DNA of 64,000 nucleotides, from NCBI GenBank assembly GCA_011800155.1, contig CM022373.1, positions 62,001-126,000 of the forward strand. The letters run 5' to 3'. The notes under the pieces were generated by a model. It did no database searches. It was given only the letters and a program-made list of their open reading frames with translations, and was not told the DNA's origin. This document shows, piece after piece, positions 4,299 through 28,000 of this stretch. Position 1 is the stretch's first letter, and every line of letters starts with the position of its first letter. This DNA is from Flammulina velutipes. Its lineage: Eukaryota; Basidiomycota; Agaricomycetes; Agaricales; Physalacriaceae. The position numbers and the translations under genes are program-made.

Positions 4299-6210
4299 TT
4301 CTTTGCCGCCTTTGCTACCACACCCTATCTTCGAGCGGACACCTCTCATCTATCCCGACCTCTCGCACACTATTCACCTACGCCCTCGCTCTGCAAATTG
4401 CTCTGATTCCGACGCTTCCATCTACAGCAGAATCATTACTCCGTACCACCCAATCGCATTCGCACATGCACTTAATAAACATCACATTACCCATGAATTC
4501 CCGTCCCTCATCAAGAACCTTCAGCATGGTTTCCCCATTGGCGAGATGCCTCTTCTTCTGTCAACTATCATTATTCGCAATCATCCGTCGGTGGCAGAGC
4601 ACCCGGACGCGGTTCAGGATTACATCACGACCGAGTTGGGCATGGACCGTATGTCAGGCCCTTTCACGCAACAGGAGACAGAGCGCATCCTGCGCGGTCC
4701 ATTTATGTCGTCGCCCTTAATTGTGGCGATCCAGGACCAAGGTCCGGACTTACCTGTAAAGAAGCGAGTATGCCGAAATCTGTCTAAGGGTGACAAGACT
4801 TCGGGAACTGGATCAGTGAATAGTTTCGTGGAGAAAGATCTTTTTCCGACTCATTTTGACATGGCGACACGCGTGGCAGAAGTGGTGAGCTATTCCACCT
4901 TTTTGTTCCTCCTTTACCGTCATTTAGCGTCACGATTTCACGCATTTTCACGCTCTCACGCTTCATGTTGTCTTGTTCAAGTTTCAAGTTATGCTCATGT
5001 TCATGTTCAGATTGCTTCTGCTCCCGAGGGGACACAAGCTTGTGCTTTTGATATCGAAGCGTTTCATCGCACCTGCCCTGTGCACCCCGCCCACAAACCC
5101 TATCTGGTGGTCGAATTTCAAGGCCATTTTTATATCGATCATGTTCACCCTTTCGGACTCGCCACCGCAAGCAGCAACTCGGGCCAAATTGCAAACGCGT
5201 TGGTTCGCATTTGGGATTTGGAGTGGAAAGGTGCCGGACTGGTGTTGAAATACGAAGACGACATGTCGAACCTTCGTTTCCCTTTGACTTCCACCAACGA
5301 CGACACTCACTCTTTCCTTTTCTCACGCGATGAATCGGTGGAGCTAGTCCAGGAGCTCGGCACTCCCTGGCATCCACGAAAATGCGGCCGAGAGTTCCTG
5401 GAGATGATGGTCTTCATTGGCTTCCTATGGGATATTCGACGTAGGCGCGTCTCTTTGCCGGAGCCCAAGCGACGAAAGTTCTTGGCACGGGTTACAGGCC
5501 TTTTGGAGAAGAAGGGTTCGCACATTCCTCTTCTTGACCTTCAGAAGGTTCATGGCTCCCTCGTCCACGTCGCCTTTATCTACCGACATGGCACATCCCA
5601 CCTACCGGCCTTTTCTAACGCGATCGCAGCCTACCCAAACAACTTCGCGACTCGCCATCTCTCAGGCAAGGTTGTCAAGGCCCTTCAATGGTGGCAGAAA
5701 GAGCTCAGCGAGCCATCGTTCTTTTGCCAACTCAAGCCGCTCCCGCCGCTGGAGGATCTCAAAATTTATGTGGACGCCTCAACATCGTGGGGTATTGGCA
5801 TCACCCTCGGTACTTCATGGTACGCCTTCAAGCTTCGAGATGGATGGAAGTACGCAGCCGATTCACCGCGTGATATCTGCTGGCTCGAGGCGGTTGCACT
5901 AGAGCTCCTGCTCTATTTCCTGGAGCAACATGGTTTCCACGACCGTCATCTTCTCATCCACTCCGACAATAACGGCGCCATCGGCGCTCACTCCAAAGGT
6001 CGCAGCTCTCATGACGAAATCAACCTGTGTGTGCGGCGCACACAAACGGTTGAGCTCACGCACTCTATCACTCCTTCCTTCGTCTACATCGCGTCAGCGC
6101 TCAACCCAGCGGACGCACTATCGCGAGGTGTTCTCCCTTCATCCACCTCACGACTCACTCGTTCATTCAATTTACCGCGGGACCTCGAAGGTGCCCTGCT
6201 TGATGCATAG
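4027..6210 (+). CDS. Ngaro reverse transcriptase / RNase H
   Basis: The open frame is 727 codons; the true start is unclear because the first ~90 codons overlap ORF1. RT motif A is AFDIEAFHRT, motif B region HPFGLATASSNSGQ, and the catalytic YxDD is KYEDDM. RNase H follows with its acidic residues in VDAST, EAVALELL, HSDNNGA and NPADALSRG. All catalytic positions are present. A GT..AG segment at 4885-5010 interrupts the RT just before motif A without breaking the frame (see separate entry). The product would copy element RNA into DNA; the downstream recombinase, rather than an integrase, would insert it. Confidence 0.9.
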   Translation: MAGLTLSDSIRQPAPPSPTGSHTSARSDMDHSGLLVSQETAATREKFVSISTSLEKDARRITPKPSTFTSALSVVPKSMARLPASRISQTDSLPPLLPHPIFERTPLIYPDLSHTIHLRPRSANCSDSDASIYSRIITPYHPIAFAHALNKHHITHEFPSLIKNLQHGFPIGEMPLLLSTIIIRNHPSVAEHPDAVQDYITTELGMDRMSGPFTQQETERILRGPFMSSPLIVAIQDQGPDLPVKKRVCRNLSKGDKTSGTGSVNSFVEKDLFPTHFDMATRVAEVVSYSTFLFLLYRHLASRFHAFSRSHASCCLVQVSSYAHVHVQIASAPEGTQACAFDIEAFHRTCPVHPAHKPYLVVEFQGHFYIDHVHPFGLATASSNSGQIANALVRIWDLEWKGAGLVLKYEDDMSNLRFPLTSTNDDTHSFLFSRDESVELVQELGTPWHPRKCGREFLEMMVFIGFLWDIRRRRVSLPEPKRRKFLARVTGLLEKKGSHIPLLDLQKVHGSLVHVAFIYRHGTSHLPAFSNAIAAYPNNFATRHLSGKVVKALQWWQKELSEPSFFCQLKPLPPLEDLKIYVDASTSWGIGITLGTSWYAFKLRDGWKYAADSPRDICWLEAVALELLLYFLEQHGFHDRHLLIHSDNNGAIGAHSKGRSSHDEINLCVRRTQTVELTHSITPSFVYIASALNPADALSRGVLPSSTSRLTRSFNLPRDLEGALLDA
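4885..5010 (+). other. Putative in-frame intron in the RT gene
   Basis: The 126-nt segment begins gtgagc and ends gttcag, is phase 0 and a multiple of three, and has no stop codon. Its translation is a hydrophobic and Ser/His-rich stretch with no place in the RT fold. Removing it joins ATRVAEV directly to IASAPEG…AFDIEAF, the expected spacing before motif A. Spliceosomal introns are known in DIRS-like and Penelope-like retroelements. Confidence 0.65.
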
Positions 6211-6455: not shown

Positions 6456-7931
6456 ATGTCACTGGCATTGTCCACTCCTACCAGTGGCAGATTCATACAG
6501 TCTCCGCAGGGCGTCCCCTCAATGAATGCTACACGTTTTATATTGCCCTCTTTGACTCCTGTGAGCGCCCTCTCAACGCGCTTTGTTTCGGCGCCAGTGG
6601 TCTCACCTCGCACCCTGCCAGAGCAGAGCTCTTCACGTTCCTTTGTCTCAAATCCAACTCCCTTGTCCATACTCCACCCAACCTCACTCGTGCCACCTTC
6701 AGATGTTGAATCACGACTGGTCGACACACGTCTAGCAGCTTCACGTTGTCTACGCGGGATCAGAGCACGGAAATCGAAGGACGGCTGCAGCATTACCTCC
6801 AGCCCATATCGCCCTCATGTTCCAGCAGACAGACGTCTATTCTTATGGACGACACCTTATTCTCGCGTCTCTCAACAGCGCACAGACGATGACATCCCCC
6901 TCCATCTTCATTCTCTAGCCCTCTCCAAGGTCGCGAACTCAGTGGTCGAAAATACGCGAGGTGTTTATGGTGCGGGCCTGCTTCGCTTCACGCAGTTCTG
7001 CGATTTTCACTCTATCCCGGAGTCTAAGCGCATGCCGGCCCCCGCTGTTCTACTGGCAGCTTTCGCTGCATCAGCGTGTGGTACGGGTTCGGCGGCACGC
7101 CTCAAGAACTGGATGGCGGGTTTGGCATTCTGGCACAAGGTGAACTGTGCACCATGGCACGGAAAGGACGAATGGGTTCCACTCATCTTGCGGGCTTCAA
7201 TCAAGGAGGGACACTCTTTCCGTCGTCCTCCTCGCGGACCAGTGACACTCGAGCATCTTCGAGCACTTCGGGAGCGGATTGATATCACGACTCCTCGAGG
7301 GGCGGCCATATGGGCAGCAGCACTGGCGGCTTTCTGGGGTTGTAGGCGTCTTGGCGAACTGCTCATTCGCTCTCTCGCCACCTTCAATCCCGCGCATGAT
7401 GTTACACGAAGTACATCCATTACCATCACGGAGACTGCAGGTCGCCTCGTTATTTCAATCTTCCTCCCATGGACCAAGACGACAGGCTCGCAGGGTGGAC
7501 GTCTGATCCTCACGCAGACAGGTGACGACCTCTGTCCAGTGGCGGCGTTCAAGAATCATTTGAATGTTAATGGCTCTCCCCCTCCACGGACACCTCTCTT
7601 TGCATTTCGCAATGGCACCACATGGTCTCACCTCACCAAGACAGACTTCCTGACATCGACAATCAAGATCTTCCAGACTGCCGGACTACAGCATGTCTTT
7701 GGGCACAGCTATCGAATCGGCGGCTCGGTACACCTCCTATCCACAGGTGTGGAGTCCGAGGTGGTCATGAAGCTTGGGGGCTGGTCGTCGATGTGTTTCC
7801 TCATTTATTGGCGTCGTCTGGAGAAGATCATACCTACCGCGCTGGTCAAAGCTTGGGCCTCACGTATTTCATCGTTCATATCATCGCACAACTTAGCTAG
7901 TGACTTGGAAGACTTTGAAAGCCTTATTTGA
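6456..7931 (+). CDS. Ngaro tyrosine recombinase
   Basis: The 491-residue protein has a variable N-terminal ~130 residues, a core-binding region, and a catalytic domain with the R-H-R-(H/W)-Y set: first Arg in FWGCRRLGELL, H-x-x-R in GHSYRIGG, Trp in LGGWSS and the nucleophile Tyr in FLIYWRRL. This is the YR fold of DIRS/Ngaro elements. It would integrate the circular or linear cDNA through the split repeats. It lies 245 nt after the RT stop in the same orientation and ends 104 nt before repeat B1. Confidence 0.9.
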   Translation: MSLALSTPTSGRFIQSPQGVPSMNATRFILPSLTPVSALSTRFVSAPVVSPRTLPEQSSSRSFVSNPTPLSILHPTSLVPPSDVESRLVDTRLAASRCLRGIRARKSKDGCSITSSPYRPHVPADRRLFLWTTPYSRVSQQRTDDDIPLHLHSLALSKVANSVVENTRGVYGAGLLRFTQFCDFHSIPESKRMPAPAVLLAAFAASACGTGSAARLKNWMAGLAFWHKVNCAPWHGKDEWVPLILRASIKEGHSFRRPPRGPVTLEHLRALRERIDITTPRGAAIWAAALAAFWGCRRLGELLIRSLATFNPAHDVTRSTSITITETAGRLVISIFLPWTKTTGSQGGRLILTQTGDDLCPVAAFKNHLNVNGSPPPRTPLFAFRNGTTWSHLTKTDFLTSTIKIFQTAGLQHVFGHSYRIGGSVHLLSTGVESEVVMKLGGWSSMCFLIYWRRLEKIIPTALVKAWASRISSFISSHNLASDLEDFESLI

Positions 7932-19891: not shown

Positions 19892-21576
19892 ATGTCTTGC
19901 GTGGCCTTAGCATGCGGCGCCATATTTCGCTTATGCTTTCGTCGGGGTCGGGATGCGAGCACTTCACGATCTCCCGTTCCCTCGGTTCGCCCGGGAAGGC
20001 ATACGGAGGGGAATCAGAAGAATGAAGTCGAGTCAAAAGACGACACTGTTCCCCCAGGTTCTTCTGGCACACAACCGGATCCAGCAGGTACCGGTGCTCG
20101 TACCCCTTCTGAGTCGAACCCAGCAGATATAGAAAATGGTGAGGATGAATTCCTCGGCGACGAATCGCGAATGCTAAAATCATCCGTTTCTTTCAAGGTC
20201 ATGATAGCACCCATGACGTCGCGAAGATTGCCTGGAATGGCTTCCAGCTTATTTCGAGAAATTTGGAATCGATCTTTGAAGGCACTCCGTTCGCTACACC
20301 CCTTGCGGTACTCAATACCCTCATTAAGATCGGAAATGTATGACATAATATATCGAGTCTTGGGAGAAGTGCTGATCGCTTTATTTCAGTCTGTCGTCAC
20401 AAACAAGGCTGAAATGGGCGACCTTGTTGACCGGACGAAGAAACGTCTGGAGATGATCGATGCCGCGTTACTCAAGACTGGAGACGATATTGCTATAGAG
20501 CGGATGGAAAGGTTCGCTAGGTCCGTGTTTGATTGTGGTCTCCAAACATTTGCTTATAATGATAATAGAGCTCTGTTAAAGGAAACGGTCCAACTCAACG
20601 AAATGCGAAATCATTCAGTCGGAAGGCGGTTCTTGGAGAGCGATGAAGACGGACAGAAGGTCAAGGAAATATTTATACGGCTTGATGAATGCACCAAAGA
20701 CTTTCACGTGGGTAATTCTACGGCTTTCGTGAGCTGGCTACAACTGATGTACTTTCTCTCACAGATCGATATATGCATGAGTATCGAGAGACAAACAGCA
20801 GCCATCTTCGATTTCATTCAACGACTGCACCTTGTTACGTGGCCCCGCTCGCGACAAGCAATCTACAACACAGATGTTGACTCCATGCTTACCCGAATGC
20901 AGTGCGCGCAGGGAACTCGTACCAATATCATCGACGGCATCCTCAAGTGGGTAGCGGACAGCTCCAGCCCCTCCGTCTACTGGTTAAACGGCCTGGCGGA
21001 GACAGGAAAGTCCACAATCGCGTACACAATCTGCAAGCATGCCGAGGAGAAGGAAAATAACATCCTGGTGGCTTCCTTCTTCTGTTCCCGACAGATCGAA
21101 GATGCTCGAGATCGAAAGTACATCATTCCCACCATCGTCTACCAGCTTGCTCGTCGTTCCCGATCCTACTCCCAGTTCCTTCTCAAAGCAGATTTTGACG
21201 CGGTCGACTCATCGGAGAGGCAAATGTGGGAGCTGTTGGTGGGTCCCTGGGGGAAGTCGGCATCCGAGCGTTTGCTTGAATTTCCCCCTCGTCTTATTGT
21301 TGTTGATGCGTTAGACGAGTGTGAGGATGGCTCCGGGTTCTTGGGAGAGCTCCTGGATGTCATCCAGAAAGGGGAATTGCCAGGACTCAAGTTTCTTGTA
21401 GTCTGATAAAAGTTCCTGGATCAAAGCCGGACCTCAAATTTTCGTCACGTGTAGATCACGAATATGAACAAATTTCTAATTTAGCGTCGCGTCGCGTCGC
21501 CTAATTTGGATGATAGGAGCTTTAGGGGTTCGTAGCACAATGCAAATTCTCTTGCTTCCGTATCTTTCCTATTATC

Positions 21577-23856
21577 ATGTTACCAAATTCCTTTCAATTC
21601 TCGTCTCCTGAAGGACATAGAATCCTTCGAGAGATCAGAAGGAAATACTTGCCTTTTGACCCTCACGACTTCAGCCTCCATGTAGCGGCAAAGATACTGG
21701 ATCAGGATGATGTTCTTGTACGGACGGCATGCGGGTCTGGGAAGACAGGTACAATTGCACTCATAGCAGTGGCACTTGCCCAGCTAGTTCAGGATCCTAG
21801 CCTGGCGCCACAGTTTTCTGTCTGGTACGACAAAGACCCTGCTATCATTGTTATATGTCCGACAAATGCTTTGGAAATTGATATCGTGAGTGACTGTGAA
21901 TAATCACCACTATGTTCTAGCTCATACCAGATTTTGAAGGCAGCGAAGATGGCAGACATGAATATTTCTGCTGTTGCAGTCAATAAAGAGATTGTGGATC
22001 AGCATAATAACAACAAGACGGCACAGGCTTTCTGGGCCGATGTGAAAGCCAGTAGGATTGTTCTGATTTCGCCTGAAATGCTAGGGACCGACAGCGCTCG
22101 TGTCCATCTTGGTTTGGACAATCCCGACTCTGATTTCCAAGGGCGATGCACTCTCTTGGTCTGCGATGAGGCACATCTTGTGTACATCTGGGGACGCAGA
22201 TTCCGTGAAGCATACCGTCAAATCGGAAGCACACGTAACCGACTACGTCGTCGCGTACGATTGCTCCTACTCACCGCCACGTTACGCCCCAACGGCCCTC
22301 TGGAGTTTGTCCGACAATGCTTTGGCTTGAAGGAAGGGCGATACATAGATGTTCACTACTCCAATCTCCGCCCAGAAATCCGTACCAACACTGCCATCCT
22401 CCAATCCAATCTACAGACAGCATGGAACTTTCCTGAGCTACGCTGGGTTCTTGGTCTTCCTGCAATCACAATCATTTTTGTCCCACATCGCATAGGGGGT
22501 CTTCGACTTACTTTATACCTACGGCGCTGTAGACCTGACATCGCTCGGTCAGTGCGAAAGTGGGATGCACTCAATGACAAGACTTACGACGACGAGAGCC
22601 GGGAAATGGTGAAGCGACTGGATACGCGACGTGACAGCCTTGTCATTGTCGCGACAACAGTCCTCACAGTTGGAGTAGACATGGATGGAGTGGAGCGCGT
22701 CGTTAACCTGGAGCCTACAGATTTTGATGAGGAGCTTCAAAAGGAGGGACGTCTGCTTCGAAAGAAGAAGAATGCCACCGATACAGCTGAGGCGTACCTA
22801 TATGTCTACGAGAAGACGTTGGCTAATGCGCGTCTTGCCGTTCAGGCTGCAGAAGAAGCAGAGGAGGTGTTGCATACTGCGGAGGAACGAAGGAAGAGGT
22901 CGAAGACGAAGCATACCCGCTCTACCAGTGAAGGCGCAGATCCGAAGATGGACATTAGCTGGGCCCGGCGCCTACTTGCGACATGTTGAACCGTCGAGCA
23001 AGATAAACAGTATCACAACCCCCCGTACGGTGACCCCATCTGCACGTGTAGAACATGCACCGAGTCTTCGCCATCAACACACCCTCCTTGCCTTTGTGCT
23101 GCCTGTCGACCAGGAGAATCCCTTCGTGAACGTCTCACTCAACTCCAACAGTGTTTTCTCGAAACAGCTGGGGAAGCTGTCAAGACTCGAAAAGAGATGC
23201 CAATAGTACATGAAGGTCCCATCAATGTCGACGAGGCGTTGACACGCCAAAGCCAGGAGGTCATCGAATCATTTCTGCAGGACCTCGACAATGATCTCTT
23301 CGAACGAGGGGTCGCCAATCCCGGGGGACTCTTGCTTCCCGGAATGTTCATCACACGCCCCGTTATTGTGACGATCTTGGACGGTTTCATCAAAATCCAA
23401 AGTCGCCGGGATCTCGAGCAAATCCTCAGACACCATGAGCTAGAGGTGGAGTGGCTTGATGCGCTCTGGATCACAATCTCTCAGAAGATTGTACCTGCGA
23501 TCCTGGCTCGACACGATAAACGGCAGAAGGAAGGAACAGAGACGCAGAGAGCCAAGGAGTTGAGTCAGATGAAGGATAGTGATGTTGCCGACTTGGAGAA
23601 GCATACGCCGAAGTTAAAAGAGGAGGATGTGACAGAGGAAATGTCAAAGCGTGAGTTATATCTTGATCTGCTGTTCCATCGTCTGTGGGATAATCAGCTT
23701 CCAAAGCCATGGAGGATGAAAAAGAAGAGTGACTACCTACCTGTCCTCAAGGAGGCGGTGAAAAGGTTCAATGAAGGGGGCTTAAAAGTTGATGAGATTC
23801 GGGAACTCTTGAAAGAACGATCTAATACTTTTGTATCATCCGAACTCCCTTCCTAG
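21577..23856 (+). CDS. RecQ-like helicase with one in-frame TGA
   Basis: Two exons (21577-21885, 21931-23856) make a 745-codon frame. Helicase motifs: Walker A ACGSGKTG near residue 55, LISPEML, Walker B VCDEAHL near 180, LLLTATLRPNG, IVATTVLTVGVDMDGV, and the arginine-finger motif LQKEGRLLRKKK near 375. A Cys-rich segment (CTCRTC … CLCAAC) follows, then a helical C-terminal third. Codon 456 is TGA (22987-22989), after which the same frame stays open for 288 codons with family-like content, so this is best read as one nonsense mutation, splitting a ~744-residue protein. RecQ enzymes unwind DNA 3'-5'; here it probably serves the mobile element. Confidence 0.82.
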
Positions 23857-26599
23857 CTATCCTCTGTATCTGTCTCAAATCCATTTCGCTCGTGGTTAAA
23901 CATGGTCTCAGCCGGCGGCAAATCCTCGTCCTCGTCCTCGCCCCCTTCCGCTTCAAACATGGCAATAATCCTCTGGGCATCCATCTCAGGATTGAGCTGG
24001 GACGTCAGAATGTCGCCGTTGCGAATATCGTGGACGAACAAGGGACCTGATGGATTCCTGAACATCTCTTCCAGGTCAGTGTCACCGTTGTCATCGTCAT
24101 CAGCAGCGAGAGATGTCGAGTGGGTATGAGATGTCGATGAGCTGGAATCTATGTTATCGCGTAACATCATCATCCGACTCGTCCACTTCTGCAGCAGTCC
24201 GGCCTCTAATGCTTTGACTCCTGTTTGGTTCGAAAGTGTGCTGCTCAAGTTCTGCAACTGTCGGCAGCTTGGAGTTCTCATGCAACAGCTCAACGACATC
24301 GAAGACATCAGAGCAGTTGGACGTATCCAGTTGATGTTGGGCGGCGATCCGGGAGAGAAAAAGTCTGCGGGCACAATCAGATATTTATCATAACCATTCG
24401 CAAAGATAAAGTACCTCCAACAATCGAGCATCCTCATGTCAGCCGCGAAGTAGAGTAGCTCGCTTGCTTGATGATAGTTATATTTCCCCTGGTCCTTCGG
24501 AATCTTGCGGTTGATTTTGGACGCTGAATGTCCAAGTGTAGACGGATCCAAACTTGCGTAGTCGACAAGATGATGATCAATTATGCGCGAGTCGTTGGTC
24601 CAGAAGCCATGCCACCATGCAATGAGAGGATCGAGAAAGCGAAGACTATGAAATGGTGATGTATGGAGTTGTCGATGCTGCATGAGGCCTTGAACAAGCT
24701 GGTATGTAAATCCGTCCCCGCTAAGACCACACATGCGCTTGAGATAGCATTCACCAGTCTGTCCAGCGCTCTTGAAAAAGTCCAGAATTGCCGCTAGAAA
24801 CTCTGGCGCCTGTGTCTCACTCCCACTTACTGTGGGCAAGGTAAAGCATTCTGTAGCGACGTCTGGGAGTTTCTGCCGACGACCTTTGGTGTCGAGTAGA
24901 TCATTAGCGTACTGCTGTAGATGCCGAAGACGGGAAATGTAGCGTCCGAGAACCCAGAGCTACTGATACGCAAAAACACGTCGCTCGTGCTCCTGATCCA
25001 GAAGCTTCAGCAGCTGACACGTCGTGATCTTGTCCCGTTGGCACTGAGCACGCAGCTTCTGCTTGGTGTCATAATCGAAGACACTGGGATCGGCTGCTGA
25101 AAGTGGTGCTACCCACACCGTTCCCGCCATTCCAACGTTCATATGATTGTCACGTCCGAGACGATAGGTGCGTCGTCGAATGTAGTTCTGAACATTATCA
25201 ATGACAATCCAGAACCATCGACCTGGGTCCCGACAAACGTCCAGTGTCCGGATAGCTGCCTGTTGTGAAAGTCCATGGAGAAGTTTGAGGAGAGTGGGGT
25301 ATGATGGTGTATTGCCGACATGAGAATCATAGCGAAAACTCTCATACGATGCATTGGATATGAGGTTAAATAGACCTTCTAGCAAAGGACCCACTCGGGC
25401 ATGGGGCGACCGACTAAAGAGCAATTTGGATATAACAGTTGAGACGACCTAAACACGCCAATCAAACATTGAACCATACAAAATAAAGAGGCATATCTTA
25501 CATTCTCGATTGGTCGTTGTGAACGAATATCGTCTCCATTTTGATATAGATCTGGCGTAGCGATAGCTGCGAGCAGGCCCCAAAGCAGCCGCTGATGTGT
25601 GCGGTGGAGATCTAGGATGGTTTTGTGGGTCTGTCGTCCGAAATTATCCCAATCGACAACAGCAACATCACGTTTCGCAGGTCGTTTCTTGGTCGGAATA
25701 TGGACATGCAGTCCAGAACCAGGTTTGACGCCATGGCGAGCTTGAACTACCAGCTCCGACATGACAATCTGGACCGCAAATGAGGTGAGGGCGGGGCGGA
25801 CAGGCAGGATGGAAGTGTATGGGCGGTCAGAGAACGAGAACATCTCCGTGGATTTGCGGCTTTGGCTACCGTAGCGCGAGCGAATCCAGAGCTCAATAAT
25901 TTGGGCTACCGTATGACGTGAACCGCCACGAAGGAACTTCGATACAGTCGAGCCCCTGCGTTGGTAGCATGCATGCTCTTCTTCCTCCCATTTTCCCTTC
26001 TCTGCGCGCTTGGGCTCACGGAAGACTTCATAGAGGAATACCGCCAACGTCAGCTCCAGAGAGCGCGCATAGCTCAAGACCATTCCTAGTCTACGCTCGA
26101 GTGGGAGTGTGCTAGGATGTGGAGTAGAGGCCGGATCTGGGAAAGCTGTAGGTGTTGCGGATGTCGTAGCTGAAGTTGCGGGAGAGGATGAAGGAATTGA
26201 GGGGATGTATGATCTTGAATGGCCCGCCAATGGAGCCGGACGCAGTGTGTGAAGGACGGGAGGTTCGCGGGAGGTCACTGTAGGTGGCACATTTTCGCTT
26301 TGGGACCGGCACTTCCGCTTTACACCTCGCGGAGATGCAAGAGTAGGTGTGGATGGAACTGGGAATCCCAAGGAAAACAAAGGGGTGGAACGTGAAGTAG
26401 ACATTCGCTGGCGTTTGCGGTACGGAGCAGCAGGGGTGAGGTTGTCATTCCCAAGGAAAATATAAGCAGAAGACTCATTTGCACGCTCTTGCTGGGGGCT
26501 GGAGACCGGTAGATGGGGCAATGATGAGGAGGCAGTGGGTGTGTTATTGACAGGTTGTAGTATATATCTGGGTGCTGGAACGTCTTGGAATGAGTCCAT
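23853..26599 (-). CDS. DUF6589-like protein with one in-frame TAG
   Basis: Exon 1 is 26599-25502 and exon 2 25448-23853 (53-nt intron). The frame of 898 codons holds a low-complexity Ser/Pro-rich N-terminal ~150 residues, then a conserved body with WIVIDNVQNYIR…RLGRDNHMNVGMAGT and later DYASLDPSTLGHSASK and ADMRMLDCWRYF, which I recall as hallmarks of fungal DUF6589. The tail is acidic. TAG at 24962-24960 is codon 529; the next codons (LWVLGRY) continue the domain, so it is a nonsense change or readthrough. Function is unknown; its place in a mobile element suggests a transposition role. Family name from memory, not searched. Confidence 0.72.
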
Positions 26600-28000
26600 A
26601 GTGATCTTGCAAAGTTACCGCAGTAGAATAAAGGGATACACTTGCGAGAGTGAGAGCGACACGAATGTTAAGAGGCAAGAGAGAGTCGATCAACGTCGGA
26701 GCGTTCAACGGTGCCTCACGTGATTGCCCTTTGCCTTCAAAAGGGATAGCTTAATGGGGTAAAATTGAAGTCCCTGGTGCACGGCGTATCTTTTAGCAGA
26801 CTCTATATTAGCGAGTCCCGACGAGCTATAGAGTATGCCTTAGGGAGACTAAGTTTCTTGTGACAAGCCGACCGGACCCCAAGATAGTCAGCCAATGCAA
26901 AAGCTTTCCGGGGGGTAGTGTGTGCCATCTTCACGAGGTTGATATCGAGGAGGTCAAAGTGGATGTTCGAACGTACTTGACGAAGGAACTTTCCGCCCTC
27001 CACCAGACACATAAGCCTCAGTTCAAAGAACTCGTCGAGCAGGCTGGTGGTTTGTTTATCTATGCGGCTACCGCTGTTAGGCACATATCACTTGGCCACC
27101 TTTCAGAGAATGAACAGGCGGTGAAAATGGAAGAGTTGGTGAAAGCGGACCACGGAGGATCGAAGGGTGCTGCTAATCCATACTTGCTGGATTCTCTCTA
27201 CCGAGAGGTACTGAGAAAAGGTCTTCAGGTCTCCCATGGAGAAGCGATCTGGCGCCGACGCTTGTTGATCCTTCATACTATCCTTGGTGTATGGATGCCG
27301 ACGGGTTGTGTTGTCATTAGTGATCTGCTCTCTACCAGCGACACGGATATCGACAGCAATGTAGTCCAGCATGTTGTTGATGACTTGCATGCTGTTCTAT
27401 ATGTATCGGGCAGCGAGCAATCCATTTCCTGGCACCATAAGTCTTTCCTCGACTTCATGCAGGACCCGGAGTGTGCATGGCTTGATGTCACCGGCTCCTC
27501 AATACCTCTATCGTACAATCCTTCTTCTCAAAATATCGTCCTCTTCCGCGCCTACTAGCACATCATGCAAGCCTCCTTCAAGGGTCCGGTTTTGAGCCAG
27601 TCTCAGTTCACGTCATTCACTGTCATTATCGATCAATACTTGGATGACATCCATGACAAAACAGGAGAAACAACACCAGAAGCGGCGGCGGAAATGGCGG
27701 CGAAGGAGTTTGACAAGCTTCGGGCTGCTGTGTCAGAGTCATCTTGGAGGAAGCCAGATGGAAATCCGACATTGTCGCATTGTGTATTATGCTTCGAACT
27801 CTATATGGGCACACTCCCTTCCAATTCCGAGATCTATGGGTTATACCAGGATGTCTACGATTTCATGCATTCAACCAAATTTTTGTCCTATATTGACATT
27901 GCGCCTTCGACTGTCTACGGTTTTCATTTCTTGGGCCTGTTTGGATCGAGATTCCGTCGTTCGACTCTATACGACTCGACTGAATTATTACCGGGTGAGT

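Follow-up and report, generated by a model that had tools for sequence, protein, structure and literature searches.

A RecQ-like helicase and a DUF6589 gene share a probable AcademH-type DNA transposon in Flammulina velutipes

An insertion in a NACHT gene carries two convergent genes

A RecQ-like helicase gene and a gene of the DUF6589 family lie side by side in an element that interrupts a NACHT gene, a gene of immune type, of Flammulina velutipes (Table 1). The locus belongs to a stretch of 64,000 nucleotides (GenBank assembly GCA_011800155.1, contig CM022373.1, positions 62,001 to 126,000 of the forward strand), which we refer to as the window. The window contains AAGTTTCTTGT at exactly two places, one at either border of the element (chance expectation 0.04). 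This bears out the perfect 11-bp duplication and the AGTCT…AGACT tips of the original prediction, an earlier reading of this DNA from its letters. The repeat can be split in another, equally valid way, giving a 9-bp target-site duplication, AGTTTCTTG, and 6-bp inverted tips, TAGTCT/AGACTA; the true length of the duplication is 9 to 11 bp. When the flanks are joined, a single open frame of 734 residues spans the insertion site. The window holds two more NACHT-type paralogs of the interrupted gene, at 37.0–38.8 kb on the plus strand and 11.0–12.1 kb on the minus strand. The plus-strand paralog aligns without gaps at the joint (around 37.97–38.16 kb) and reads AAGTTCCTTGTGACC at that point, confirming that the NACHT gene is split between codons that are contiguous in an uninterrupted copy. 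The minus-strand paralog also aligns across the joint (around 11.0–11.5 kb), with short gaps and without the insertion. The segment is a true mobile DNA insertion inside the NACHT gene. A terminal repeat search found no terminal inverted repeats longer than 5–6 bp in the window element. A genome search with the left end matched the window copy only, and the left terminus is therefore placed by the duplication and the paralog.

Table 1 Features of the element and of the interrupted gene (window coordinates)
Feature	Position	Strand	Remarks
5' part of interrupted NACHT/NPHP3_N gene	19892..21399	+	
Left target-site duplication, AAGTTTCTTGT	21389..21399		maximal reading, 11 bp; 9-bp reading, 21390-21398
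Inserted element	21400..26850		5,451 bp; tips AGTCT...AGACT
RecQ-family SF2 helicase gene	21577..22986	+	two open reading frame blocks, 21577-21903 and 21934-22986; exon borders provisional
In-frame TGA (22987-22989), then same frame open to 23853	22987..23853	+	cysteine-rich start
DUF6589 (putative transposase) gene	23853..26599	-	convergent with helicase gene
Premature TAG in DUF6589 gene	24960..24962	-	
45-bp right terminus	26806..26850	+	four further genome matches, three over exactly these 45 bp
Right target-site duplication, AAGTTTCTTGT	26851..26861		
3' part of interrupted NACHT gene	26851..27558	+	in frame with 5' part once flanks are joined

The helicase gene encodes DEAD and Helicase_C domains of superfamily 2 (SF2) type (Pfam, 21577-22986, plus strand), and its best sequence matches in the PDB are WRN, RecQ5 and E. 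coli RecQ. Judged from the reading frame, the TGA at its end may interrupt the gene, or could possibly mark an unrecognised intron instead; the frame that follows contains no Pfam family above cut-off. On the minus strand, Pfam detects DUF6589 at 23856-24839 (E 4e-29). No named transposase family was found by Pfam in the six open reading frames of the element that were scanned.

DUF6589 is predicted to adopt a DDE transposase fold

To characterize DUF6589, we examined an AlphaFold model of an Armillaria homolog (P0002). All 50 matches listed by VIA-align are DDE/RNase H-fold enzymes, among them Hermes, the P element, RAG1, Transib and Tn5; families absent from these 50 are not taken as ruled out. 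The model has a predicted RNase H core in common with the hAT, P element and RAG/Transib enzymes (PDB 4d1q, 6p5a, 6xny and 6pqx), as well as a helical insertion ahead of the last helix, at only 8–11% sequence identity in the structural alignments. The original prediction had suggested that DUF6589 may be an unrecognised transposase and proposed modelling it for an RNase H-like core; such a core is indeed predicted, which makes it very probable that DUF6589 is a transposase domain. The candidate catalytic residues, D194, D368 and E624, are conserved and were assigned in P0002 only, by predicted fold. E624 was chosen because it lies in the last long helix, past the helical insertion, and because of where the aligned ranges end, guided by what we take to be the positions of the catalytic glutamates of Hermes, P and RAG1; E546 and E532 are other candidates for this residue. 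A C/DxxH motif between the second D and the last E is described for hAT, P, MuDR, Kolobok and Dada in the accessible text of PMC9587614; in alignment A1 it was not seen, the invariant residues G400 and H403 reading GxxH (judged by eye, and for this spacing only).

The Pfam DUF6589 match in the Armillaria homolog begins 84 residues past the first candidate catalytic aspartate, and this late start of the Pfam model may be the reason why the DDE nature of the family was missed. A DUF6589 profile search, run with animal members in mind, returned 632 matches; the named proteins among the best 120 of these are called 'hypothetical', 'uncharacterized' or 'DUF6589 domain-containing'. These 120 carry either species names that we take to be Agaricomycete or no name.

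The window copy appears decayed. Its candidate D1 lies within the motif IVIDNVQ near 25197-25199 and its candidate D2 within SGDGFT near 24714-24716, both counted by eye from the translations. In a custom DUF6589 profile of 794 positions, D194, D368 and E624 correspond to columns 237, 414 and 665. The window matches this profile at 160-519 only, a range that spans the two aspartate columns and not that of the glutamate; this profile comparison did not detect, in the window copy, the C-terminal region in which the glutamate is expected. Another DUF6589 locus, L035, retains profile positions 584-660, which are absent from the window. The glutamate may have been lost by deletion, although the L035 match likewise stops short of column 665. 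A short further exon piece resembling P0110 continues in another frame in the window (by eye). At the site of the premature TAG, a sense codon is found in seven of nine relatives (alignment A2, by eye), the other two having no coverage there. Given the in-frame stops in both genes and the missing C-terminal DUF6589 match, this copy is probably dead or at least non-autonomous. Other fungi have longer relatives whose frame is open, and the window copy, though probably inactive, may already have been moved in trans.

The gene pair recurs in the genome

The 38.1-Mb genome contains 20 DUF6589 matches, which group by position into at least 10 loci. An SF2 helicase adjoins DUF6589 at six of these 10 (the window, L027, L028, L030, L031 and L034), some of the neighbouring helicase pieces falling individually under the curated Pfam cut-off; none was seen at L029, L032, L033 and L035 within the stretches scanned, nor in the 16 kb that follow the right end of L035. 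The pairing of a RecQ-family helicase with DUF6589 is supported. An independent listing of Helicase_C across the genome gave 78 matches; four of the 10 DUF6589 loci have one within 5 kb (chance about 3e-5), and three of nine do if the window, which prompted the search, is left out (chance about 6e-4). The helicase and DUF6589 genes point towards each other in the window, L030, L031 and L034 and away from each other in L027 and L028.

A further element with both genes, at L030:1583-9138, has perfect terminal inverted repeats of 19 bp and is flanked by a 9-bp duplication, GGGGAGGCC. At the other DUF6589 loci no convincing pair of duplications was found, the flanks being short for L027, L028 and L034. 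The divergent pair of L028 is enclosed by inverted repeats of about 202 bp (130-331 and 6751-6951) that are 97% identical, around which no target duplication was found. For L035, the closest relative of the window transposase, the left end was not found, the scan matching only inside the transposase gene (position 5994); beyond this gene, from about 8390, L035 has repeats spaced roughly 310 bp apart.

The original prediction further proposed a search for multicopy elements with the same ends and 11-bp duplications. In this genome the right end recurs at four further places, the left end is unique to the window, and the only other convincing duplication at the DUF6589 loci, in L030, measures 9 bp. 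The four right-terminus matches count as three contexts because L036 and L037 share one repeat. Because AGACT was the last part of the query sequences, the flanks were used to verify the boundary: over the 30 bases past AGACT different contexts agree at 6–9 positions only. The 45-bp terminus stands alone at L036 (C5:231000-240900), L037 (C3:3160000-3169900) and L038 (C5:1741000-1750900). In two contexts that are unrelated, the left break of these solitary termini is identical (TATTAG), and at L036 and L037 they have AGTATTGTT on each side. They are possibly solo ends or mini-elements. A repeat of about 8.2 kb, present at C3:3158517-3166727 and around C5:225511-237399 with main pieces 97.8–99.4% identical, contains a decayed RecQ-like helicase together with the 45-bp terminus; the copy on C5 also contains an additional insert that has inverted repeats of 1.2 kb. 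A hairpin at the right end was considered and is not claimed as a feature of the element: relative to shuffled sequences its z score is -2.3 in the window, -0.1 in L035, 0.1 in L037 and -0.9 in L038; of the three other sites, L035 and L037 do not improve on shuffles and L038 does so by a small margin.

Classification, mechanism and meaning

We conclude that the window element is most likely a degraded cut-and-paste DNA transposon of the AcademH type, a group reportedly defined by Kojima in 2020 in Mob DNA 11:15. In the accessible parts of the literature, RecQ helicases in Academ transposons have been in print since 2013 (PMC3627910), and AcademH appears as an Academ lineage that carries a helicase and occurs in animals and fungi, with target-site duplications of 9 or 10 bp (PMC10045372) and low copy numbers in Basidiomycota (PMC10799480). 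The elements described here likewise combine a DDE-type transposase, as predicted, with a RecQ/SF2 helicase; their duplications are 9 bp (L030) and 9–11 bp (window), and the number of DUF6589 loci is comparably low. The DDD/E transposase expected of AcademH is matched by the predicted fold and the conserved candidate residues of the homolog P0002, the window copy showing D1 and D2 and not the glutamate. The window copy differs from AcademH in being degraded and in its very short inverted tips. Academ membership is thus suggested by the joint fit of helicase, target-site duplication, copy number and likely host group. The assignment is drawn from published descriptions of these features. In the literature searched, which leaves out most subscription papers and Kojima 2020, neither DUF6589 nor a connection of it with Academ was found. 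The original prediction of a new class of DNA transposon is not supported, since DDE transposons with RecQ helicases have already been published (Academ/AcademH and KolobokH).

Among the alternatives, the one with most weight is that DUF6589 elements form a DDE superfamily separate from Academ that gained its RecQ helicase independently. We consider this unlikely, even though DUF6589 is a family of unknown function in Pfam and is missing from the literature searched, the fold matches are scattered across hAT, P, IS256, RAG/Transib and Tn5 with no clear closest relative, and the paired genes converge in four loci but diverge in two. The helicase, the 9-bp duplication of L030, the likely host group and the low copy number all match published AcademH instead. 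Mutator-like elements (MULEs) make duplications of 9–11 bp, the range observed here. A MULE with an unusual accessory gene is considered highly improbable; the Pfam scans of the window open reading frames, two homologs and two L030 open reading frames, on which the comparison with MULEs depends, contained no MULE transposase. A Helitron or another rolling-circle element would account for a helicase and for the short hairpin possible at the right end of the window element, yet Helitrons are not known to make a target duplication, whereas these elements have duplications of 9–11 bp, terminal inverted repeats (L030) and a DDE-like predicted fold. Helitrons are recognized by Helitron_like_N and PIF1 domains (PMC8290104), and a match to either was absent from the element open reading frames scanned by Pfam; with the hairpin barely distinguishable from shuffles in the related copies, this origin is the least credible of all. 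Hardly more plausible is KolobokH, a group reported only from fungi in which a Kolobok transposon carries a RecQ helicase. It has the same pairing of a DDE transposase and a RecQ helicase in a fungal transposon, but Kolobok duplicates TTAA (both points from the accessible text of PMC9587614), in contrast to the 9–11-bp duplications AAGTTTCTTGT and GGGGAGGCC.

For an AcademH-type element, the following mechanism is plausible. A DDE transposase with an RNase H-like core would carry DUF6589 as its C-terminal two thirds, and a wholly helical insertion would precede its last catalytic helix. This transposase would bind the asymmetric ends (AGTCT.../...AGACT), excise the element and insert it at a staggered cut in the target, whose repair by the host would leave the 9–11-bp duplication. 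The RecQ-type helicase, encoded on the opposite strand, might help to unwind the ends or the repair intermediates.

On the strength of the predicted fold, DUF6589 gains a likely function as a DDE transposase. If so, fungal genome projects could mask such genes as transposons, and it becomes possible to test what a RecQ helicase does in cut-and-paste transposition. Should the elements instead prove to be a separate superfamily, DDE transposons of Agaricomycetes would have been repeatedly paired with RecQ-like helicases, and cut-and-paste transposons would have recruited a helicase on three or more separate occasions (Academ, Kolobok and DUF6589).
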